64,000 nt of DNA from a bacterium 1XD42-54 (GTDB lineage Bacteria; Bacillota; Clostridia; Lachnospirales; Lachnospiraceae): contig RAZH01000001.1 of assembly GCA_003612585.1 (NCBI GenBank), positions 558,001-622,000 on the forward strand. Direction: 5' to 3'. This document shows positions 919-64,000 of this stretch, piece by piece; positions within the stretch are counted from its first letter, which is position 1; every line of letters starts with the position of its first letter. The notes below the pieces were generated by a model. It worked only from the letters and a program-made list of their open reading frames with translations. It did no database searches and was not told where the DNA came from. A program made the translations under genes and the position numbers.

Positions 919-989
919 GAAACAGAGGACTGCCACTGCCCGGGGTTCCGACAAACAAGTCACCCCGGGCAGTGGCAGTCCTCTGTTTC
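919..989. repeat. Long perfect hairpin with conserved loop, copy 1 of a dispersed element
   Basis: Two perfectly complementary 28-base arms (919-946 and 962-989) flank a 15-base loop, TCCGACAAACAAGTC. It lies between the FGGY kinase stop and the forespore promoter, so it can serve as the kinase terminator, though no long T run follows. The loop and inner stem recur at 36653-36675 and, inverted, at 40386-40412, with unrelated outer stems. That recurrence suggests a repeat family, not a simple terminator. Confidence 0.85.
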
Positions 990-6124: not shown

Positions 6125-6186
6125 GATTCTCTCCCCCTGTCTAATTATGATATAAATTCTTTTTTGGTTTCCTGCGGTGCAAAAAA

Positions 6187-21199: not shown

Positions 21200-21237
21200 A
21201 TTCCTCTCCTTTTCAAATGTTCAACCTAAAAACAAAG

Positions 21238-21311
21238 CCCGGATAAAACACACAAAACCTAAGAACCCTGATTGTTCTGGAACTCCGTTTTGTGCGTTTT
21301 ATCCGGGTTTA
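21238..21311 (-). terminator. Long hairpin between the regulator and glycyl radical enzyme genes
   Basis: The 23-base arms 21238-21260 and 21289-21311 differ at two positions. The 28-base loop contains its own AGAAC/GTTCT stem (21264-21268, 21276-21280). On the minus strand it is followed by TTGTTTTTAGG. It can be an intra-operon terminator or attenuator that sets lower or conditional expression of the radical enzyme. Confidence 0.75.
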
Positions 21312-21335
21312 TCCAATATCGACCAAAAACCTGGA

Positions 21336-36500: not shown

Positions 36501-36788
36501 ATTGCCTCCTGATTCACTTTACACAATCTATTTGCAGATAGTTTCCTATATGACAAACAACCCGCGCCTATGCAAGACCAGGCGGTACAAGTATAACATA
36601 AGCGCCAGCTCGATGGAAAGAAATGATTGGCATATCTGAAAAAACATTTTGAGGTTCCGGCAAACAAGTCACCCCTTACTTTGTGCAGGCGGCCAGAGGG
36701 CTGACTTTGAAAGTGTTTTTGGTTACTTCGATTATAACAGCCATTTGCCTTTTTCGTTTAAGAAATTAATTCCAGATTAAAAAAATAA
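36501..36788. other. Intergenic region with decayed hairpin element
   Basis: This 288-base gap holds a candidate -10 TATACT for the decarboxylase gene (36590-36595, minus strand) with no good -35, and the decayed repeat copy at 36653-36675. No coding frame is supported. Confidence 0.6.
36653..36675 (+). repeat. Decayed copy 2 of the conserved-loop hairpin element
   Basis: GGTTCCGGCAAACAAGTC followed by ACCCC matches the loop and inner stem of copy 1 with one change. Outside GGT/ACC the flanks no longer pair well, so the stem has decayed. Confidence 0.75.
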
Positions 36789-40068: not shown

Positions 40069-40501
40069 CCATCCCTTCCCCCTTTACAGCAACATCCAAA
40101 ACCACCGATTAGACATCCGTCTATTACTCCTATTGTATCAGACTTCCGCCCGCCCTGTAAAACAATTCTGCCCCTCAAAAACCCCCATTCCCCCTCCGTT
40201 TCCAGCTATTTTTACAAAATCGTAGAATCTTTACAATCTTCCTTTTTAAAGATAATAATCCCATTCTATTTGTTCTAATCTTTCCTTTTTTCCTCCACTC
40301 CTATCGTCCTATAATGAACTCACTTGAACAGATAGTTATAATTCTCTCATTCAAAGTCAGGCCCCTGGAAAAGGATACAAAAAAAGGGGGGACTTGTTTG
40401 CTTCGGAACCCCGTTTTTATATCCTTTTCCAGGAGCCGTCCGTTTAATCACGCTCTTTTATAACTACCTGATTCACAATCTCATAAAGGAGGATCACACT
40501 T
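40069..40501. other. 433-base divergent intergenic region
   Basis: No coding frame is supported. It holds a TATAAT (40310-40315, plus strand) without a clear -35, which suits activation by the AraC-type regulator, then the hairpin element at 40364-40433 and the AAAGGAGG site at about 40486. The stretch 40110-40300 is pyrimidine-rich on the plus strand. A 5' leader of about 180 bases containing the hairpin would result. Confidence 0.6.
40364..40433. repeat. Hairpin element with conserved loop, copy 3 (inverted)
   Basis: The stem pairs 40364-40377 with 40420-40433 (14 bp), then five A:T pairs, then GGGG/CCCC. The apex, read on the minus strand from 40412 to 40386, carries GGTTCCGAAGCAAACAAGTC, matching copy 1 apart from two extra bases. 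The outer stem sequence is unrelated to copy 1. Confidence 0.8.
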
Positions 40502-51473: not shown

Positions 51474-54400
51474 TTACTGTGCGGCAGCTCTTCTCCTTCT
51501 TTCCAGTAACAGAAGCGCTGTCATCAACATTGCCATTCCAATCAGCGTATTCCACTGTGTTCCCGGTCCGCCTGTAGAAGGCAGCTCATAGAGACAGTCG
51601 TCCTCAATCCGGAATGAAATATTATACTGAACAGGTACCTTGGTCAGATCGCTGTCCTTTGTTACCACGCTTTGATGCGGGCTGGTCCGGAACATCTCAT
51701 CCGCAGGTACTTCACTTTCAAATGAACCGTCTGGCTGCGCCGTTTCTTCTGTCAGCAGCTTCGGCTGCGCAAGTGCAGCGCCGTCCTCATCCTTCAACTG
51801 AGATACCGTAATCACCGGTTTTACATGTTTCCACGTAAGCTTCTGCTGTTCTTCATTTTCCTGATCGGACAAATAAACAATTCTCACTTCATATACGGAT
51901 GCATTCAGGTCATATCCGTTTGGAGCCTTTGTCTCCTTCAGATAATAGGTTCCTGCTTCCAGATGCTCAAAAATTACCTTTCCGTCGCTGCGCGTCTGTG
52001 CAACTACTTTTCCGGTATCTGAAAGTCCTGCATCACGATACAGTGTAAACTGTGCGCCGGAAAGCAATGCCTGAGGCAGCGGTTTACCATCCGCATCCTT
52101 TGCAATAACAGAACTGAGTTTCGTCAGATCAATCCTGTAAAGAATCTGTGTATTGATCGCCTGGAACGTCCGTACGTCCTTCTCAGTCCAGTCTGTACTG
52201 CTCATGCGGAAGCCGGGGAGTACTTTGCCGTCCGCGCCTGTCGCAGATTCCGTCAGGCTGTAGGTAATTTTTCCGCCGCGGCCTTCTGCCTGCAGTGCCC
52301 GGTGCTCCAGAAGCCATGTTACCGTGCTGCCTGCTTTCACAACACTCTTTCCTCCCGTTGTCAAAACGGTCAGAGCTCCACCATCCGTGCGGGCTGTCCC
52401 CTGCGTATCCACAAGCGAATCCGCTTTGGTAACTGTAACGCTTGCAGCTGCATTATCTGCCTTCATATCATTATCAGCTGTCATCACATAGTCAGAAGAA
52501 TAATTCACCACATCCTCTGTGCCTACGGAAGCCTGAACGGTAAACGTAACAGAAGTATCCTTTTGGATCGGATTTACATAAATATTCTCCCAGTCCTTGC
52601 GAATCGTGAGATCCAGATAGTACAGACCGCAGTTCCAGTTTCCTGAGACATATTTTCCGGACTGAATACGGTTCAGATCCGGCAGAGAAATTCCCTGGCC
52701 TGCATTGTCTGCAAAGGCTCCTGCCAGTGCTGCCGCTCCACTCTGTACACTGTCTACATTCGTTCCGTAATCTGCTTCCGTCCGGTTCACCGGAGATCCT
52801 GTCGGCATATTTGCCGGAAGCTTTGTTACACTCAGCCGGTCAAAACTAATTCGTTTTGTGCCGTTGTTTACCTGATAACTGTTGTCGTCATCCGCGAATG
52901 CAACGAAATATCTGCCGCTTCTCAGCTTGTCGAACGAGTATGCCCCCTTATCGGAGGTGCTTCTGCGGGACACCAGATTACCCATTACATCCACCGCCGG
53001 GTATCTTACCTGACCATCAATCACAGCCGCTCCAAGTGAAACATGTCCCTGTGTCCATGTATCATCTGTCGGATCACCCGGCGTACCGCCGTCGTTTCGG
53101 CTGATCAGACCTGATTCTGTCTGCGGTTCTGTATCCGTATAAAGGAATACATCTACGTTTTTCAACGTCCGGTCAGTACTTGCATATCCGTTCGTTCCAA
53201 CTACATATTTGCCATCCTGGTTCTGATCCATCCATACTGTACCGCTGATAGAACGCTCTACTGTATCAATATAAGCCTTTCCGCTGATAACCGGATCGGA
53301 ACCACTCTTATAGAACAGATTATTCCAGTACGTATTACCGCCCTGCTGCGTTTTTCCGCTGCTCGTAATCAGTTCCTTTACCGGACCCGCGTCGGCTGTC
53401 TGCGGCGAAAGAACAACTTCTACTATAACAGATTTCGCTCCTGTTACCTGTGGTAAGTATGCGCAGAATCCAATACCGCCTGCGCCATTTGCAGCGTACT
53501 GAATCAGATTCTCACCGCTGTACTCAACAACCCAGCTTTCGTCCACTTTGCCTAAAGCTACCGCGCTCCATGCATCTCCGCTCTCAAGCAATGTGGCAGC
53601 CTCTTCCATTTCTGCCTTTCCAGCCCCGGGCGCTTTCATATCTTTCCGATACTTCAATGATCCTTCTGCAAGGAATTTCTCATAATCCTTCTGTTCACTG
53701 AACTTCATTCGAATGGCACTTACACGGTAGCCTCCAGTCATAGAAGTTCCCCGTCCGTCTCCATTATACGGAAGAACATCATACATCTGAATCGGCACCG
53801 GCGCCTCGGTACGGTTGCTGTAGTTCAGATAATAAACAAGATCGTCCCCCAGCTCTGTACGACTGCTCTTAACATCCATATAAATGCTGTCGTTACGGTT
53901 TGCCACTGCGTCAATCGAAACACTGTCCGACTTTGCATTGCATGCGATCTGATTGATCTCAGAATATGTGGTATTGATTTTCGCCTGCGTTGTAAGTACC
54001 GTACCGTTCGGAACGTCGAGCTCTTTCGGTGCTCCTGGCGTACCAATCGTACAGGAATAACGGATTTTCGGAAGCTTTTTCTTGATATCACTGACTGAAG
54101 TCCTCAGTGTGATAAACGCTCTTCCGGTCCAGATATCGGTCGGATTGCCCTGCGCATCTTTCTCCATCTCTTTCTCGTAATCCACATCCCAGATCAGCTC
54201 GCCATCCGCATAGCCGGAACCTGCTGTATCAATTCGAATACTTCCTTCATTGAAGTTCAGATGTTTCGGAAGCGTAAGCCTGATTTCGACCTGCGCGGGC
54301 TGAGAACCGTTATCAATCAACTCATGATTCTTAATCGCACTTGACTTCTGAATCGTTGGTGTGACAACAAAGTTTGCAGTTCGTTCTCCGTTGGACAGAT

Positions 54401-57400
54401 AGTACTGAGTCTTTGGTGTATTGGCCGACCCCAGAATGATATCTGCCACTCCGATCGTGACACCGCTGTCCATCGTGTACAGAAGCAGCGTATTTCCGCG
54501 GCGCCATCCTGTATGGGTTCCACCCATCGGACTTCCGTCCTCATACTCTGTCTTTACATATGAATCTGTGTAATCACTTCCTGATGCAAGTTTCCTGCGT
54601 CCCGTATTTTCATCATAATAATTTTCCGGCAACGTACCATTTCCCGTCCCGTATACACCCGTCTGTCCATTATAGGAAACATCTCTCCAGTTAAACTGAT
54701 AGACAACTTCCTGGCGTGCTACCGCACCTTTGGCGTATGCTTCCTTGTATGTTGGTCGGTACACAGTCCAGATCTTTGCATCGTTTGTTGTACAGAATGT
54801 TTTTCCTGTATCTGCAAAGTCATTTGTTACGTTCATCTTACTCGTAACGGTAATCCGTCTTCCCGTCCGGATGCAGCAATCGCGGAACTGATACAGAATC
54901 GCCACGCACTTTCCGCGCGAAATGCCATCCGCATCGTAGCCAAAATAATCATACAAAGCCTGCAACGTATCAAAATAAATCAGGTCTTCTTCGTGATGCG
55001 CAACCATATCGTCCTCGCCGCCTCTGTTTCGGAAAGCTGACGGACTTTCATCTTTCGTCCAGTTCGTTCCGTCCGGCTTTGCCGCATACAGGATCGTCAG
55101 GTTGTAGCTCATTGTTTTAATCGGATTATTTTTCGACCATGTCGTCGGTCCCTCTGTTGTCGTGATAATAAACGCCCCGTTACCAATATTTCTGGTCACC
55201 TGATTCTGCTCATAAGAAACGTTTGTCACGGCTGATGTGCCAACTGGCGTGTATGCGTCTGCGTCAAACTTCTGCAGCAGGTTCACCCCTGTCATATAAT
55301 TGTACTCTATAATATTGTGTATCTGCGGGTCAAAATCTTCAGGCGCAATGTAATGCCCGGAATTTTTATCCTGCGTATTAATGACCTTGCTGCTGTAGTT
55401 CAGATCCGCGGCAATATACACCTGGGAACCAAGCGGTGTTGTTCCCGTACCTCCTGTACCGGAAAGAATACCGTTCGAACCGGTATTGAAATAATTCGTC
55501 TTGCTGATCCCGTCTCCGTTACTGTAATTATCATTGTAGACATACATTCCTGTCACATGGGAAAGATAATTATCCTGATACAGCATTTCTCCTGTCGCAT
55601 GCTCCCGATAGCTGCTTCCAAAGTATTCCTGCATCTTTGCCATATCGTCGTCTTTTACATTTGACGTATCTTTTCCCTCTGCCGTATTTCCTGAGGAATC
55701 ACGAATCTGCAAATCAGAGACAATCCCTTCCATGTCAATTTCAAGATATCCTTCGCCGCCCTTCGTCACCTCCGGATTTACCGGGAAGAGAATCTGCACG
55801 TATCCTGCTGAAAACGGTTTTACCTGATTCGACCCGAAAAACTCACTGTTACCGCCGCTCGATGCGTAGGAAGGTGAAGAATTGTCGTATGCCGGGTTGA
55901 CAGTATATCCGCTGATCTTAAAGTGTACAACCGTTTCCGCATCGCCCTGCTCTGGCTGAGCTCCGCTCGCATGCCAAACACCTCCGCTGTAACATCCGCT
56001 GTTGCCGCCGCCGCTGTTGTAGGGCGCGGCCGCATATGCATACCGCGTCGTCCGCGTAATGTCGTCCTCATCGTTCCAGTCCATATTGAAGCCGTAATTC
56101 GTATTCGACAGATTCATTCCGTACGCCGTATTGACGTTTTCCTTGTAAGCCCAGATATACGGCGCCTGCTTCAGAGGATTTCCCTTATCATCAGTCAATT
56201 CCTTGCCCTCCAGGTACAGGGAGCCGCCCAGATGAAGGTCAAAATCAATATCTCCCTCCGGGAACTGAATACCCTGCAATCTGTTTGCTGCACCATCGTT
56301 TCTCAGGGAAAGCGTAATTCCGTATCCAAGCATTGTTCCATAAACAACAGTTCCGTTTCGCTCCGGATCTTCCAGACTTTCTTTATATTCTCTCTCGTTT
56401 ACCTCTTCTCCTGTTTCAAGGTTGAAATAACCCGTATACGCAAGTGCAGAATTTCGAAGGAGCGAAACATTATACTTATCCGTCGCTGATACTCTTGTCG
56501 GAGCTTCCGGACTCAGTTCCAGCGGATGCGCTTCATTCTCCGGATTATCACCGATCCACTGGCGGAATACCGGCTCGATCAGCTCGCCGTTTTTCATCGC
56601 CTTTACATTAATGGAAATGACATTCTCCTGCGTACCGGCCTCATTTTCAATTTCCCAGTAACCGCGCATCTTCTGAATCACCGTACCGTCTTCCGCTTCT
56701 GTCTCGCTGATCTCACAGACTTCCATCGATTCGTTATACACAAACTCTGCCTGCTCCGCGCTAAGTGGCAGTTCTGCTTCCAGCCAGAGCTTCAGTTTCT
56801 GTTTTTTTGCCGGTACAGGGTTCTCTGATTCATCGCCATCTGAACTCAATTCCTGACCATCCTGATTCTGTCCTTCTGCATCTGGATTCGATTCATTATT
56901 ACCCGGATTTTGTGCATTTTCATCCAAGTCAACTTCATTTTCACCTGAATTTGATCCGTTTGCATTCAGATCTGATTCTTGATCGCCCGAATTTTCCTTA
57001 TCTGCACTGGCATCCTGTACGGTTGTGATCATCTTATACATAATCCGGTCAAATGTACGAACAATTCCGTTGTTATTGCTGCTGTCGTTTCCGGCGCTCC
57101 ATTCCTTTGCCGGACCGTTTATTCCATTCTCCCACTCATCTGCCAGGGCATCGCCGTACTTCTCCGCTTCGCGTACAGCCGCCGTATTATTAAATCCTGT
57201 CACACCGTCCTTGATTCCCTCTGTAGCGTGGAAGTTCAGAGATTTTACTTCCATCGTTGTTTCATTTTCACTGCGTTCGGTGTCTCCATAACGGTCTGCC
57301 GTAAGCTGAAGATCAAAGCTCTGTATGATCCTGCCCGTCACATACTGACCTTCCAGAATCTGCTCCGCCGAGCGAACTGTTCCATTATAGCTGTCATCCT

Positions 57401-60400
57401 TCCAGACATTGTAGTCCGTATTGCCCATATCGACTGCCGGAATCAGCGTTGTCTTCGGATAACTTTTACCCGGATATACGCCCGTTCCTTCATATCTGGA
57501 ATAAATATCGTTTCCTGCTCCTGTTCGCGTCGAGGTATTGTTGCACAGCTCTCCGCCGGTCATCAGAAAGCTTGCCTCATTCCCAGCAGCCTGCGCCAGA
57601 CCGCCGCCAAACTGTGCTCTGTTCTCCGTGATACTTCCGCCTGTCATGCGAATCACGCCGCCGTACTGGTAGATCGCTCCTCCGCGGGTCGACTCATTTT
57701 GCGTGATAACGGTACCTTCCCCGATTGTCAGCGTACCGCCGCTTACCCGGAATGCTCCGCCGTAGCTCGTCGCATTCGTCGTTTTATTCCCCTGAACAGT
57801 CACGCCACCAACCTGCATCGTGCCGCCGGTCAGACAGACGGCTCCGCCATCATTTACTGCCTTATTTCCTTCAATCAGACCGCCGGTGAAACGACTTTTG
57901 CCGCTGGACTGGCAAATTACTCCGAATCTGCTGCTGGTATTATTGCGAATCGTACCGCCGGTCATCTGGAATACCCCGCCCGGAATCCAAATAACGCCGT
58001 CCCGCGTTGCTGTATTATTCTCGATGACACCGCCACTCATACGGAACACGCTGGCGCCGCTCTTTACCATTACAGCCGCTCCATACATAGAACTACAGTT
58101 GTTGATAGATGCTGTTCCGGTCAGTTCAAATGTACCGCCGTCCACACAGACGCCTCCGCCGCCATAACTACTGTTATCCCCGACTGCGCCGCCCGCGTGG
58201 GACTGACTGATCTGTCCGCTTTCCATCGTTACAATACCACCGGAACGTACCAGAACTGCGCCGCCGCTTTCCGGCGCATTTCCGATAATCGAACCAACCG
58301 CACCATCCGGCCCTGGCTCTGTCTCATCTTTGACATCCTTAATATGAAGTTTACCGTAACACGTGATCGCTGTTGTGGTTCCCTGTAAAGTATAGCCGTT
58401 CAGGTTCAGTGTCAGCTCCGTGCCGCCCGGTATACGTACATTTCCTGCCGCCTCTTTTACGAGAACAATCGTCGGATGCTCACCATATACTGCATGATCG
58501 GTATCAGCCACAATAGCGTCGACCGCCTTTTGTACCGTAGTAAACGGCGTATCTCCGATTTTTGCAACGATCTCCTCCGTCTCATATTTCAATGTGAGTC
58601 CGTAGCTTCGAAGCACCGGCGTATACGTTATCCCGTCTGTAATCAGATGATCACGACCTTCGTCATACCATCCCATTCCGCTCTTTCCGTCCGCTGCCTC
58701 AAACATGCCTGCTGCTGTCGGAAGACACAGATGAGAACTTTTATAGGAGGCATTATATGCCGCATAAACGTCCTGTCCGAACGCTGCTGTGTTATGGTAC
58801 AGTTGAGCACCCTTCAGCACTGTAACATTGCTGTCTGCAGACTCCATAGTAAGGCCGCCGCCATTGCCTCCTGTCTTGTTGTCACGAATCACACCGCCAT
58901 TTATCGTAAGGATCGTATTCCCATTGGCATTATAAATCCCGCCACCGCTTCCGGTTGCCACATTATCTGCAATCAGGCCGCCTGAAATTGTGTCTTCCCA
59001 GCCCAGATACGAATGGTCTTTGTTTGGCCTCTGCCTGTTATAAATCCCGCCACCGTAGGCTGCCTGGTTTCCGGTAATCTCTCCGCCTGTCATATTCAGC
59101 TTTCCATACCAGCTTACACAGATACCGCCGCCATTTCCGGTTGTTGTATTGTTGCGGATCTTGCCGCCTTCCACAGTAAGAGTCGTATAATCTTCCAGCA
59201 AGATGCCGCCGCTATTTCGTTCAATTACAGTCCCTTCCTGTACAATAGTTTCCGCTCTCGCGTTATTGTTTATTGTAACTCCGCGTCCTTTATTATCGCG
59301 AATCTGTACACCTCTCAGATAAACACGGTGTGTATTATTCCCCGCGCGTACCTGCAGGCCCGTTCCTGAATTGGAATTGATTACACCTCCGTTTAGATAT
59401 GCATTTGCGCAGCCGGCCACGCAGACTGCTCCATAACCGCGGTCTGTATTATTGCTGACCTCTACGCCGTCTTCCATTATAAAACTCGTACCTGCAGCAC
59501 AAACGCCGCTGTTATAGTATGCATAATTGCCGCTGATTTTCGTATTTCCCTCAAGCTTCGTAATACCGGTAAGATACAGGCCGCCATACCAGCAAATGTT
59601 CCGTTCTATGCGGTTATTCGTGATGGTACAGTCTGTCACTGTAACCGTCCCGCCAAGGCGTGCACCTCCTACGTTCGACAGCAACGCACGGTTACCGCTG
59701 ATCTCCGTGTTCTTTACGTTTACCAGATTTCCCGTACGCACAGAACAATAAAGACCGCCATACTGCCGCTGCGCCGTATTATTCAAAAATCTTGAATTTA
59801 CAATATCTATCGATTTGGCATGGCAGATATACGCTCCGCCACCGCCACTGTTCGAGTCTGAAGTCTCCTTCGTCACATTATTCTGGAACAGAGTATCGCT
59901 GATCGTAACGCTAAGAGGCTCCGCTGCGTTGTCAAATCCATAAATACGAAGGCCGCCGCCGCTTATCGTTGCCGTGTTACCGACAAACTCACTGCCCTGA
60001 ATGGAAACGGTACTCGGGGCGTAAAGTACTGAACCTGTATTTACAGCTCCGCCATATTTTGCCTGGTTGTTACGGAACGAAGCTCCTGTGATCTCCAGAT
60101 CAAATGCTTTCGTGCTGGCATTGTTAGAACTGAAGCCCTCTACCTGCAAAGCTCCGCCGTATGTTGCGCAGTTATCGGTGAACACAGTTCCCTCTCCGAT
60201 TCGGATACTACATCCATAACGCGCATAAATTGCTCCGCCATTCATTGCCAGACTTCCAGTTATGGAATCAGGATTACCAAAACCTGTAACCGTAATTCCA
60301 CTCACGTCAAGCACACCAGCCGTCATGTAAATCGCGCGTGCTCCCACACATCCTTCAGCCGGTGTCAGAAGGCCGCCTGCACTGCCTTCCTTCGCATCCT

Positions 60401-63400
60401 CCTGACGGTTCCCGCTTTGACTGCTGTCCTGTAATTTCAGTGCGCCGCCTGTCAAATAGAAAATATTATTATTATTTGTACTCAGCGTGTAGCCGTTCAG
60501 ATCAATTACAACATTCTGCCCCTCTCTGATCGTCACACGTTCACATACATCTTTGAGCAGATAAATAATTTCCCCGCCCTGTGCTGTCTCTATTGCGTCG
60601 CTGAGTTTGTCAAATTGCTGTACCTCATCTCCACTTCCGATACGCGCTACCGCATTTGTATGATCCTCTTTGCTCTTTGCCGCTGTCAGATAATACGTAT
60701 GTGTTTTCTTTATCACAGCAAGTGGTTCTTTTATATAGGAAGAATCATACCCATCATACCAGCTGTCATATTCCTCAAATCCCATATCGGAAGCTGCAAA
60801 CAGCTGAAATCTGTAATTTCCACTGTAAGCTACTGCACAGATATCTTTTGCATCTCCATTGCAGATGTTCCCGTATATCTGACCTCCGTTTAATTCCAGG
60901 TGCATATTTGCGACTGCATAAATGCCGCCGCCTTCGCCTTTGTTTCCCGTCGTCACCTGATTTCCTGTGATCACGCTGGTAGCGCCTTCCGGTATCCGGA
61001 CGGTTGTATTCCCAGCACCATAAATACCGCCGCCACTGTTTGCAGCTTTGTTATTTTCTATCCTTCCGCCTGTAAACTCAAATAATGTACCATTTCCATC
61101 CAGATAAACAGCACCGCCCGCATTGGTAGCCGTATTATTTCGAATCTCACCGCCGGATACATACACTTTAGAACTGTTATGCATACGGATTCCGGGACCC
61201 ATATCCGTCGAATTTCCCTCAATCACACCACCGGTCATGTAAAACGAAGCCCTGCTGTCCTGTAACCGCACACCGCCTCCATTGTTTGCCCGGATCTCAC
61301 CGCCATTCATCGTGAATACGCTGTTTTTCTGGACCCCGGATACATTTTCAGCATAGTTGACCAAAATGCCCATTCCACGGTTTTCTTCCACATACCCGCC
61401 GTCCATGGTAAAGCTGCCAAGTCCGCCAACGTAAACACCGGCTCCGTACCACGCTGTATTTCCTTTAATGTGTCCGTTTTTCAGCGTCACATCACCCAAA
61501 ACAAACAGGCCGCCGCCACTGTTCAGTTTATCTGTCCTGTTCGGATTTGCAGTTCCGCTTCCACCGCAGATAACGCCGTTTTTCATTTCGCTCGTATCAT
61601 CAATCGTAAGCTTCGCTCCCTGCTCCACATAGATGACGCTGCTCGAAAGCCCCCTGATCGTATGCCCCGCCAGATCAAGCGTTACAGAAACGCCTTCCGG
61701 TATCTGCACACACTCTATGCTGTCTGCCAGCATCGTAATCACTGCGTTTTCTGCCTGACCGTCTTCTTGCCCTGTCACCGCCAGCATGTCGATGGCTTCC
61801 TGCACGCTTCCATAAACCTCGCTGCCAAGCTGCGCCACAACATTCCCGTACCGGAATGTATACGCACGATTCTCACCGTATTGTAACATTTCTTCTTTCG
61901 TTTCCGTCACAGAGGTCTGGGAACGTTCCTCATACCAGTCAATCACCGGTTCCCCGGACGGGCTTACAAAATCTGATGCAGTTCCCAGTATCAGAATCGG
62001 AGCACGCGCAAAATTCTCCTCGTTTTTACTGGTACTTCCAGACTGATACAGATCATGGCCGCCTTTCGCGGCAAAAGCCGTATTATCACACAGCATACCG
62101 CCTGTGATAGAATTTGCTCCACTCTTGCCTACACTACCGGTCAGATAGATACCGCCGCCGCTTCCAATGGCTGTATTTTTCCGAACTGTACCGCCGGTCA
62201 TTGTCACACTGCCTTCTGCACAAATACCGCCGCCGTTACTGTTGGACTTATTATCTGTAATCTCTGTGCCTGTAATCACAATTTTTCCGCCCACATATGA
62301 CTGATGAATGCCGCCTCCAACGCCGCTGGCTGTATTCTCACTGATACGGCCGCCTGCAAGCGTACTCGTACCGCCTCCATACCAGTACACACCGCCGCCA
62401 CTCGCTTTGGAATTGTTATGTTCGATCGCACCGCCTTCCATTACAACAGTTCCGCGCACACCGCCGCCGCTGCTACTTGCCGTATTCTCTGCTACTTTTG
62501 CATCGTCGTAAAGGTAAAGCGTACCATAGATACCGCCGCCCTCGCCGCTTGCATAGTTGTTTATCACCTGCGCACGGTCATGCATCCTTGTCGTTCCATA
62601 CGTACCGCCGCCTGTCCATGCCTGATTATCCCGGATGAGCGCATCTCCAGTCATGGTAACAGCGCCCCAAACGCCGCCACCATTACCTCGCGTCATATTC
62701 TCACAGACAGCACCCCCGCTCATCGTCATTCCTACTTCCGTATAAATGCCGCCGCCGTGCACATCACTGTTGCCATCTGCGCTGTTGTGACTGATCTCTC
62801 CACCCGTCATTGTCAACTTTGCCCCAGTTCCACTGCGATGAAAAAGACCTGCGCCATATCCGTATCCCACGCCATGAATTACATTCCCTGAAATAAAACC
62901 TCCCTCAATCAACGTAACGCTGTAATTATCAACAAACAGACCACCGCCATGGGTAAAGTTTGTATTTTCTTCTATCCGTGTTCCTTCTTTTAATGTAACG
63001 GAAGCATACTGTCCCACATAAATGCCGCCGCCCCAGATATTCGCCGTAAGCCCTGTATCTTTTGAAGTATTTTCACTGATGCGGCCACCTGTCATTGTAA
63101 AGGAACTCCTGGCCCCATTGCTGCTGGCCAGATAAATACCTCCACCTGCAAGCGTCGTTTTGTTCCCATACAGCCAGTTGCCACGCACTGTTCCGCCGTC
63201 CATCACAAGCTGTGTCCCTGCCGTCAGATAGATTCCGCCGCCATAACGTCCGCTGGCATTCTCTGCGACATCTGCGCCATCCGTAATCGTACAAATGGCT
63301 GCTTTCTTTGCCAGATAAATTCCGCCGCCGTCCGCTTCCGCTTTATTTCTTCTGATGTTCGATGTCTGAATGGTAAAAGCTTCCGTTGCTTCATATAAAT

Positions 63401-64000
63401 AAAACCCGCCGCCATTGCCGGTTGCCGTATTTTCCACAATCAGAGTTTGGTTATCCAGAACATAGCTTCCTTCTGAGACCAGATACGCAAAAACACCACC
63501 GCCATCCTGCGCTGTGTTTTCGCAGATCGTTCCGCCTGCCATCGAAAAGCTGTTCCCATCATATGTGAAAACTCCACCACCATTTTGTGTGGCTGTATTG
63601 TTCCGGATACTTCCGCCTTCTATTGTAAACACACCGTGCTCTTCCACAAGCACGCCGCCGCCATTTCCGGTAACATGGAAATTCTCGATCACACCGGATT
63701 GCAGCACAAACTCGCCGCCGCTTCTAACTGCCACACCGCGAACACGCTCCGCAGGTCCAGCCGACGCTCTGTTTGCTACTGCACCGTTTTCATTGCCGCT
63801 ATTTTGCAACACAAGCGTACCATACACGGTAATTGTATTAATCGTTGCATTCCCAATACGCTTCTGTGTATCAGGAGAAAGGACGTAGCCGTTCAGATCA
63901 AGCGAGATGGTCTGACCGTCCCAGATCACAATATTCTCTGTATAATCCCGGTCCAGTTTAATCTGTGCGCTCTCGCCCTCTGCCACCGCATTGATCTGCG
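51474..64000 (-). CDS. Giant beta-helix pilus adhesin, LPSTG-anchored (N-terminus outside window)
   Basis: The frame is open to the window edge and has no in-frame stop there (the residues before GTG 63986 read QINA), so at least 4,174 residues are encoded and the signal peptide lies beyond. Residues to about 2,240 are right-handed beta-helix repeats of the GGGIY...MTGG.I..N.A type, in four modules. An acidic Asn/Asp/Ser/Glu linker lies near 56830-57010. The next ~1,000 residues form an adhesin region of unknown fold, then a DUF11-like part (about 53700-53900), an SdrD-B/Cna-B domain (52860-53260), a further Cna-B part, a SpaA domain with YYLKETKAPNGYD (51830-52080), and LPSTGG at the end. 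It heads the pilus operon as probable tip protein. Confidence 0.88.
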   Translation of the reverse strand, partial: QINAVAEGESAQIKLDRDYTENIVIWDGQTISLDLNGYVLSPDTQKRIGNATINTITVYGTLVLQNSGNENGAVANRASAGPAERVRGVAVRSGGEFVLQSGVIENFHVTGNGGGVLVEEHGVFTIEGGSIRNNTATQNGGGVFTYDGNSFSMAGGTICENTAQDGGGVFAYLVSEGSYVLDNQTLIVENTATGNGGGFYLYEATEAFTIQTSNIRRNKAEADGGGIYLAKKAAICTITDGADVAENASGRYGGGIYLTAGTQLVMDGGTVRGNWLYGNKTTLAGGGIYLASSNGARSSFTMTGGRISENTSKDTGLTANIWGGGIYVGQYASVTLKEGTRIEENTNFTHGGGLFVDNYSVTLIEGGFISGNVIHGVGYGYGAGLFHRSGTGAKLTMTGGEISHNSADGNSDVHGGGIYTEVGMTMSGGAVCENMTRGNGGGVWGAVTMTGDALIRDNQAWTGGGTYGTTRMHDRAQVINNYASGEGGGIYGTLYLYDDAKVAENTASSSGGGVRGTVVMEGGAIEHNNSKASGGGVYWYGGGTSTLAGGRISENTASGVGGGIHQSYVGGKIVITGTEITDNKSNSNGGGICAEGSVTMTGGTVRKNTAIGSGGGIYLTGSVGKSGANSITGGMLCDNTAFAAKGGHDLYQSGSTSKNEENFARAPILILGTASDFVSPSGEPVIDWYEERSQTSVTETKEEMLQYGENRAYTFRYGNVVAQLGSEVYGSVQEAIDMLAVTGQEDGQAENAVITMLADSIECVQIPEGVSVTLDLAGHTIRGLSSSVIYVEQGAKLTIDDTSEMKNGVICGGSGTANPNRTDKLNSGGGLFVLGDVTLKNGHIKGNTAWYGAGVYVGGLGSFTMDGGYVEENRGMGILVNYAENVSGVQKNSVFTMNGGEIRANNGGGVRLQDSRASFYMTGGVIEGNSTDMGPGIRMHNSSKVYVSGGEIRNNTATNAGGAVYLDGNGTLFEFTGGRIENNKAANSGGGIYGAGNTTVRIPEGATSVITGNQVTTGNKGEGGGIYAVANMHLELNGGQIYGNICNGDAKDICAVAYSGNYRFQLFAASDMGFEEYDSWYDGYDSSYIKEPLAVIKKTHTYYLTAAKSKEDHTNAVARIGSGDEVQQFDKLSDAIETAQGGEIIYLLKDVCERVTIREGQNVVIDLNGYTLSTNNNNIFYLTGGALKLQDSSQSGNRQEDAKEGSAGGLLTPAEGCVGARAIYMTAGVLDVSGITVTGFGNPDSITGSLAMNGGAIYARYGCSIRIGEGTVFTDNCATYGGALQVEGFSSNNASTKAFDLEITGASFRNNQAKYGGAVNTGSVLYAPSTVSIQGSEFVGNTATISGGGLRIYGFDNAAEPLSVTISDTLFQNNVTKETSDSNSGGGGAYICHAKSIDIVNSRFLNNTAQRQYGGLYCSVRTGNLVNVKNTEISGNRALLSNVGGARLGGTVTVTDCTITNNRIERNICWYGGLYLTGITKLEGNTKISGNYAYYNSGVCAAGTSFIMEDGVEVSNNTDRGYGAVCVAGCANAYLNGGVINSNSGTGLQVRAGNNTHRVYLRGVQIRDNKGRGVTINNNARAETIVQEGTVIERNSGGILLEDYTTLTVEGGKIRNNTTTGNGGGICVSWYGKLNMTGGEITGNQAAYGGGIYNRQRPNKDHSYLGWEDTISGGLIADNVATGSGGGIYNANGNTILTINGGVIRDNKTGGNGGGLTMESADSNVTVLKGAQLYHNTAAFGQDVYAAYNASYKSSHLCLPTAAGMFEAADGKSGMGWYDEGRDHLITDGITYTPVLRSYGLTLKYETEEIVAKIGDTPFTTVQKAVDAIVADTDHAVYGEHPTIVLVKEAAGNVRIPGGTELTLNLNGYTLQGTTTAITCYGKLHIKDVKDETEPGPDGAVGSIIGNAPESGGAVLVRSGGIVTMESGQISQSHAGGAVGDNSSYGGGGVCVDGGTFELTGTASINNCSSMYGAAVMVKSGASVFRMSGGVIENNTATRDGVIWIPGGVFQMTGGTIRNNTSSRFGVICQSSGKSRFTGGLIEGNKAVNDGGAVCLTGGTMQVGGVTVQGNKTTNATSYGGAFRVSGGTLTIGEGTVITQNESTRGGAIYQYGGVIRMTGGSITENRAQFGGGLAQAAGNEASFLMTGGELCNNTSTRTGAGNDIYSRYEGTGVYPGKSYPKTTLIPAVDMGNTDYNVWKDDSYNGTVRSAEQILEGQYVTGRIIQSFDLQLTADRYGDTERSENETTMEVKSLNFHATEGIKDGVTGFNNTAAVREAEKYGDALADEWENGINGPAKEWSAGNDSSNNNGIVRTFDRIMYKMITTVQDASADKENSGDQESDLNANGSNSGENEVDLDENAQNPGNNESNPDAEGQNQDGQELSSDGDESENPVPAKKQKLKLWLEAELPLSAEQAEFVYNESMEVCEISETEAEDGTVIQKMRGYWEIENEAGTQENVISINVKAMKNGELIEPVFRQWIGDNPENEAHPLELSPEAPTRVSATDKYNVSLLRNSALAYTGYFNLETGEEVNEREYKESLEDPERNGTVVYGTMLGYGITLSLRNDGAANRLQGIQFPEGDIDFDLHLGGSLYLEGKELTDDKGNPLKQAPYIWAYKENVNTAYGMNLSNTNYGFNMDWNDEDDITRTTRYAYAAAPYNSGGGNSGCYSGGVWHASGAQPEQGDAETVVHFKISGYTVNPAYDNSSPSYASSGGNSEFFGSNQVKPFSAGYVQILFPVNPEVTKGGEGYLEIDMEGIVSDLQIRDSSGNTAEGKDTSNVKDDDMAKMQEYFGSSYREHATGEMLYQDNYLSHVTGMYVYNDNYSNGDGISKTNYFNTGSNGILSGTGGTGTTPLGSQVYIAADLNYSSKVINTQDKNSGHYIAPEDFDPQIHNIIEYNYMTGVNLLQKFDADAYTPVGTSAVTNVSYEQNQVTRNIGNGAFIITTTEGPTTWSKNNPIKTMSYNLTILYAAKPDGTNWTKDESPSAFRNRGGEDDMVAHHEEDLIYFDTLQALYDYFGYDADGISRGKCVAILYQFRDCCIRTGRRITVTSKMNVTNDFADTGKTFCTTNDAKIWTVYRPTYKEAYAKGAVARQEVVYQFNWRDVSYNGQTGVYGTGNGTLPENYYDENTGRRKLASGSDYTDSYVKTEYEDGSPMGGTHTGWRRGNTLLLYTMDSGVTIGVADIILGSANTPKTQYYLSNGERTANFVVTPTIQKSSAIKNHELIDNGSQPAQVEIRLTLPKHLNFNEGSIRIDTAGSGYADGELIWDVDYEKEMEKDAQGNPTDIWTGRAFITLRTSVSDIKKKLPKIRYSCTIGTPGAPKELDVPNGTVLTTQAKINTTYSEINQIACNAKSDSVSIDAVANRNDSIYMDVKSSRTELGDDLVYYLNYSNRTEAPVPIQMYDVLPYNGDGRGTSMTGGYRVSAIRMKFSEQKDYEKFLAEGSLKYRKDMKAPGAGKAEMEEAATLLESGDAWSAVALGKVDESWVVEYSGENLIQYAANGAGGIGFCAYLPQVTGAKSVIVEVVLSPQTADAGPVKELITSSGKTQQGGNTYWNNLFYKSGSDPVISGKAYIDTVERSISGTVWMDQNQDGKYVVGTNGYASTDRTLKNVDVFLYTDTEPQTESGLISRNDGGTPGDPTDDTWTQGHVSLGAAVIDGQVRYPAVDVMGNLVSRRSTSDKGAYSFDKLRSGRYFVAFADDDNSYQVNNGTKRISFDRLSVTKLPANMPTGSPVNRTEADYGTNVDSVQSGAAALAGAFADNAGQGISLPDLNRIQSGKYVSGNWNCGLYYLDLTIRKDWENIYVNPIQKDTSVTFTVQASVGTEDVVNYSSDYVMTADNDMKADNAAASVTVTKADSLVDTQGTARTDGGALTVLTTGGKSVVKAGSTVTWLLEHRALQAEGRGGKITYSLTESATGADGKVLPGFRMSSTDWTEKDVRTFQAINTQILYRIDLTKLSSVIAKDADGKPLPQALLSGAQFTLYRDAGLSDTGKVVAQTRSDGKVIFEHLEAGTYYLKETKAPNGYDLNASVYEVRIVYLSDQENEEQQKLTWKHVKPVITVSQLKDEDGAALAQPKLLTEETAQPDGSFESEVPADEMFRTSPHQSVVTKDSDLTKVPVQYNISFRIEDDCLYELPSTGGPGTQWNTLIGMAMLMTALLLLERRRRAAAQ
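57260..64000 (-). repeat. Beta-helix coding repeats in four capped modules
   Basis: Units of about 20-30 codons recur dozens of times; GGCGGCGG-rich codons for Gly-Gly-Gly-Ile-Tyr and ATGACxGGCGG for Met-Thr-Gly-Gly are the conserved DNA parts. Four cap segments with a (L/V)xLNGYxL or LAGHTI core lie near 63880-63930, 61650-61840, 60480-60660 and 58390-58580. Units are diverged, so this is an old expansion. Confidence 0.8.

Follow-up and report, generated by a model that had tools for sequence, protein, structure and literature searches.

Dispersed intergenic hairpins are known in bacteria as REP/BIME and RAYT elements, and the stems of REPs share sequence. The hairpins described here are likewise dispersed and intergenic, but they occur in two genomes with no Y1 transposase, that of the species studied (G000) and that of its sister species (G037, 82% complete). 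They also resemble bacterial miniature elements (MITEs), as presented in the cited part of PMC10969869, in being short, geneless and intergenic, in having terminal inverted repeats and, in cousin elements, target duplications, and in sharing their ends with an insertion sequence (IS). They depart from that description in their central near-perfect palindrome, with a copy-specific stem and a conserved apex, and in the erasure of the terminal repeats in the lineage studied, where the core has survived. Within the IS1182 group, IS1272 reportedly attacks inverted repeats, and its new insertions replace stem-loops with no target duplication (PMC5678879, part cited). The likely partner transposase of our hairpins is related to IS1182 (DUF772 plus DDE), whereas its IS gives a 12-bp target duplication and its protein falls under the IS1182 family cut-off. 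Template switching is reported to perfect stems and preserve loops, in hairpins (PMC8794818, part cited) and in quasipalindromes (PMC7202029, part cited). Multi-base mirrored changes and a kept loop are common to those cases and ours, but here they extend across some 100 or more paralogous elements of one genome. The repetitive hairpin elements of sponge mitochondria, as the cited part of PMC2800124 portrays them, are dispersed as well but keep their stems and vary their loops, which is the reverse of what we see. Our literature searches, covering titles and the openings of abstracts, found no description of such an element. On the evidence below, the hairpins are probably old copies of a MITE of approximately 140 bp whose arms have drifted together via template switching and whose core is better conserved.

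We analyzed a stretch of 64,000 nucleotides of the Lachnospiraceae bacterium 1XD42-54 (the window), in which an earlier note had pointed out three sites with a shared apex. All three are present, and the window contains 3 matches to the apex pattern GGTTCCGN{1,5}CAAACAAGTC, versus 0 in 100 shuffles. A fourth, worn copy had been overlooked. The four copies, all intergenic, and one empty site are as follows:

919..989, plus strand: copy 1, hairpin whose 28-bp arms (919-946 and 962-989) pair perfectly, with apex GGTTCCGACAAACAAGTC at 944-961
6156..6167, no strand: empty site orthologous to sister copy L359, with the element absent; insertion in the sister and deletion here are indistinguishable
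21224..21323, minus strand: copy 4, with the long stem retained and the apex worn (E 7e-9 genome-wide)
36612..36712, plus strand: copy 2, degenerate, with the apex (36653-36670) and right arm retained, the left arm gone and no stem
40329..40470, minus strand: copy 3, whole element of 142 bp between worn ends CAGGTAGTTATAA and TTATAACTATCTG

The stem of copy 1 is exactly as the note had claimed; the structure-model match to this copy spans 906-1000, and the internal loop that copies usually have close to the apex has been lost. For copy 3, a stem of 14, 5 and 4 bp had been proposed; it folds somewhat better than that, as a single helix of approximately 24 bp that includes two G·T pairs. Its core hairpin lies at 40349-40450 with the apex at 40391-40410 (minus strand), its end points were set by eye on the inverted ends, and its orthologue in the sister species is L224. 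Copy 2 matches the model with an E value of 7.5e-4 in 886 kb searched. The view that the stems of the copies are unrelated in sequence is borne out. One open frame on the minus strand of the window (51474-63986) is very long, at 4170 codons.

Across all 3.70 Mb of G000, the exact apex occurs 11 times, not just at the three sites of the window, and its reversed control 0 times. Ten of the 11 lie on hairpins, one of them eroded (L001), so the apex does not occur mostly outside hairpins. We built a covariance model on 30 copies of similar stem length, 4 from G000 and 26 from the sister G037, which, with duplicates on both strands counted, matched 44 times in G000 and 132 times in G037. G000 has at least 34 distinct sites and one additional half copy, and the sister at least 95 (82 + 13). 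Applied to 98 relatives (G000 itself among the 47 from its genus), the model matched these two genomes and none of the 96 others, in a search with strict filters that scored 41 candidates per genome. Lone apex-pattern matches in three relatives (G003, G042 and G093) were not confirmed by the structure model. Contigs of named genomes contained at least 119 loci, of which 80 were tested, and only those of the MAG CAOJHI01 proved to be the element. In viral, phage and plasmid collections, the apex and terminal-repeat matches in viral contigs look like chance: none of 56 apex loci matched the structure model, and none of 15 terminal-repeat loci had a repeat partner with fewer than 5 mismatches.

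Genomic context was assessed in the 102 copies with enough flanking sequence. The core lies inside an open frame of at least 200 codons in only 3 of them, and a gene start with a Shine-Dalgarno-like sequence follows within approximately 160 bases past the core in 44 copies in the reverse orientation and in 35 in the apex orientation (0 and 1 in nonsense-strand controls). When we sought an interrupted, autonomous version of the hairpin by half-motif, we recovered a single odd site (G000:C34:163408, L379), which is a geneless half copy at a gene's 3' end, within a cluster resembling type IV pilus genes. Beside the sister hairpins L220, L221, L251 and L252, tandem duplications of arm or flank are visible, as slippage at palindromes predicts.

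When aligned on the apex, most copies follow one plan. Outer arms enclose an asymmetric base (GGACG / CTGAC), followed by a copy-specific stem of approximately 18 bp and, above it, by the inner parts AAAAC / TTATTTT and GGGG / CCCC and the apex loop TTCCG-n-CAAACAAGTCA; copies found later by the structure model include CAAAGAAG or TTCCA variants. The stems of the 82 sister copies differ from one another on average at 9.24 of 18 positions, and only 7 pairs differ by two positions or fewer. Despite this divergence the arms remain matched. In the 30-copy alignment, 98.6% of cells are paired versus 74.9% when shuffled, and in none of 500 shuffles was any of the five observed pairing measures attained. 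In these 30 chosen copies, both partners have changed in 20 of the 22 stem pairs, and covariation reaches 0.62 versus 0.16 in the shuffled set. The outer arms co-vary weakly, with the own arm ranked first in 6 of 107 cases.

An RNA constraint tolerates G·U pairs but not A·C. Over 108 copies (82 from the sister and 26 from G000), the 22 stem pairs are Watson-Crick in 2258 combinations, against 27 that are G·T and 32 that are A·C; a further 23 are of other kinds and 36 are gapped. Pairing is kept with no sign of the tolerance for G·U expected of an RNA family. As a yardstick, 38 tRNA genes have 58 G·T among 803 drawn pairs; their zero A·C was left unused because ARAGORN may not draw mismatches.

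The two species offer 16 orthologous pairs of copies, whose flanks diverge by 2-14% (8.7% overall). Per-site divergence is 8.6% in the stem and 5.6% in the apex. We counted mirrored changes in 15 pairs, omitting the mis-registered L292/L250. Both sides had changed at 17 positions, of which 14 went from one Watson-Crick pair to another, while independent change would yield approximately one mirrored pair by our arithmetic. Half of the 14 are transversions, and 8 of the 14 are concentrated in two pairs of copies. Only one side had changed at 24 positions, with the pairing broken in G000 at 18 and in G037 at 6. In addition, a one-base deletion is mirrored across both arms in L294/L347, and in L250, compared to L292, the left arm has adopted the form of the right arm. 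Mirrored substitutions, a mirrored deletion, the takeover of one arm by the other and a kept loop are all predicted by template switching. Together with G·T pairs no commoner than A·C, the mirrored changes argue that pairing is seemingly kept at the DNA level by template switching and not by RNA folding. The note was fair in calling a conserved loop on a freely changing, paired stem atypical of ordinary elements, and this combination is best explained by DNA template switching between the arms rather than by selection on an RNA fold.

To place the element, we relied on its ends. Cousins in another genus have 17-bp terminal inverted repeats (TAGGYAATTGCGAAACT) and 10-12-bp target duplications. 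A model search of 397 genomes of the family (334 genera), in which 10 candidates were scored per genome and counts are hence low, gave matches also in three other genera (G267, G240 and G428), which share the hairpin plan and have different loop centres. The frame GGTTCCG...AGTCACC is retained in most copies of G428 and in some of G267; those of G240 are more divergent. In the complete genome G428, TAGGCAATTGCGAAACT has 55 matches with up to two mismatches (reversed control 3), and 36 distinct repeat pairs can be delimited, mostly 138-143 bp long. Eleven of the 36 are flanked by a target duplication (0.47 expected, largest shuffle 3), with best lengths of 10-12 and one of 14. In a wider set, where one locus counts twice and two G240 elements are included, 14 of 40 pairs have one. 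The G428 cousins largely share one stem. Seven short elements of 52-64 bp in G428 (L436, L435, L415, L451 and others) have terminal repeats but no room for the hairpin, and L436 has a perfect 10-bp target duplication.

The terminal repeat itself (TAGGYAATTGCGAAAC) is present in 67 of the 397 genomes at up to 86 sites per genome, with zero for the reversed control in each; the counts are 86 in G259, 47 in G408, 34 in G271 and 21 in G235. Repeats are spaced by approximately 65, 131, 151, 210 or 286 bp in various genomes, which suggests that MITEs of several size classes have these ends in common. Near the core, worn repeats persist in the window genome and the sister at 22 of 210 ends (5 mismatches or fewer), compared to 1 of 210 when shuffled. 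Thirteen of the 20 copies with both ends in reach measure 136-145 bp. None of these 20, from either species, has a detectable target duplication. A search for repeat pairs that ignored the hairpin returned two pairs in 862 kb of G000, both hairpin copies (0, 0 and 1 in shuffles). The element is thus short (approximately 140 bp), non-coding, multi-copy and intergenic, as expected of a MITE, with terminal inverted repeats in the cousins and traces of them in the window genome and the sister.

An IS with the same ends also exists. Of 30 loci with the terminal repeat, we opened 14, and 8 of these have pieces of one transposase alongside. In G172, an autonomous 1745-bp IS has this terminal repeat at both ends, with 0 and 3 mismatches, and is flanked by the 12-bp duplication aattctatattg. 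Its protein matches Pfam DUF772 (E 4.9e-14), with DDE_Tnp_1 just below cut-off, and NCBIfam IS1182 (E 3.5e-21, 75.7 bits, cut-off 270); judged by its sequence, it is related to IS1182 and lies outside that equivalog. The sister has a 1747-bp copy of the IS with both repeats, broken in that the coding region is split over two frames. Searching 10 genomes with the IS protein gave matches in G037, G172 and G259 and none in G000, G428, G267, G240, G271, G183 and G475. Since the transposase was not found in G000, G267, G240 or even G428, where target duplications are clear, its link to the element rests on the shared terminal repeat rather than on co-occurrence. These data support the suggestion of a non-autonomous element, and we infer an IS-type transposase as its mover. 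The further suggestion that it inserts at or creates foldbacks is unnecessary, as the hairpin is carried within the element and the stems diverged together afterwards.

The history that best accounts for these observations begins with a non-autonomous element of Lachnospiraceae-type bacteria, presumably moved by an IS1182-related DDE transposase. In the lineage of the window this mobility would be ancient, with terminal repeats nearly erased and target duplications undetectable. The stem of each copy would later have drifted, a change in one arm being copied into the other by template switching during replication, and every copy would in this way remain a near-perfect palindrome with a sequence of its own. 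That template switching keeps the arms matched is deduced from the pattern of changes, and the age of the copies from their worn ends.

Strong covariation, together with the many copies lying shortly upstream of a gene start, would also be expected if the hairpins were a multi-copy structured RNA (a leader or small RNA) whose stem is selected to pair, whose loop is recognized and each copy of which regulates its neighbouring gene. We consider this unlikely: G·T is not above A·C (27 and 32), whereas tRNA genes are rich in G·T, the copies have no clear orientation preference, the neighbouring genes that we read show no common function, and 96 of the 98 relatives are without a model match. Moreover, the cousins have terminal repeats and target duplications, and there is no Rfam match at gathering score; at E values up to 5, six loci gave 13 matches, all below that score and mostly to microRNA precursors. 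A site for a trans-acting RNA, which the note had also entertained, finds no support.

Rather than drifting, the stem might have been rewritten at each transposition, with new copies born with a new perfect stem. This would fit the contrast between paralogous stems in the sister, with a mean difference of 9.2 in 18 positions, and orthologous stems, which diverge by only approximately 8.6% per site, near the value of the flanks. However, the eroded terminal repeats suggest copies old enough for ordinary drift, which is why we demoted rewriting to a rival; mirrored changes also arose in place in orthologues, and the G428 cousins largely have one common stem. We regard rewriting as quite improbable. 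The conserved loop and asymmetric internal loops could also recall a single-stranded DNA hairpin recognized by an HUH (Y1/REP-type) transposase or by a reverse transcriptase. Y1 transposases number zero in G000 and in the sister genome (82% complete), the only reverse transcriptase is one in G000, and terminal repeats with target duplications indicate a DDE enzyme, making such a mechanism very hard to credit. Drift of old MITE copies with template switching between their arms thus remains our preferred explanation.

In the sister copies, stems and terminal repeats have almost reached saturation, yet the apex and base are still recognizable, although this conservation is partly due to ascertainment, since the copies were found by core-based searches. 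The apex, GGTTCC..CAAA.AAGTCAC, is better conserved than stems and terminal repeats, as are the asymmetric internal loops, and this suggests, from sequence comparison, some constraint on the core. The proposal of a loop recognized by a protein or an RNA agrees with an apex that has changed less than stem and ends, but we found no binder; that the core is recognized in this way is our guess.

This constraint seems to be relaxed in the window species, where copies decay or are deleted. Counted by hand, 13 apex differences between orthologues depart from the family consensus in G000 and 0 in G037, with 6 undecidable; nine of the 16 sister orthologues had been chosen by exact apex, and in the seven pairs not picked in this way the count is 6 in G000 and 0 in G037 (2 undecidable). 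The two lineages appear to have branches of equal length, with derived sites in G000 and G037 of 74:78, 55:60, 7:3 and 5:4 for four outgroups. At 14 places matching sister copies, G000 is without the element; four of these retain apparent remnants (L242, L336, L354 and L248), and insertion and deletion are indistinguishable at empty sites. At the cleanest of them (L360), the 5-bp AGTAA was not used as a target duplication because it may lie within a worn terminal arm. Tentatively, and with doubt prevailing, the sister species may have domesticated a dead MITE, keeping some 100 or more intergenic, often 5'-leader hairpins for an apex bound by a protein or RNA, while the window species would have lost the binder and let its copies decay.

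Functional RNA folds are usually considered best proven by base-pair covariation, and here very strong covariation occurs in an apparent transposon relic. The equal abundance of G·T and A·C pairs and the transversions and deletion mirrored between the arms form a signature that can separate arm copying at the DNA level from selection on RNA. The approximately 130 paralogs and 16 usable ortholog pairs of the two sister species lend themselves, as a natural data set, to measurements of bacterial template switching, and the terminal repeat and its partner IS are now identified across many genera of the Lachnospiraceae-type family. If domestication were true, template switching would free the stems without breaking the hairpins, and the genome would hold a large natural library in which one loop sits on many stems.
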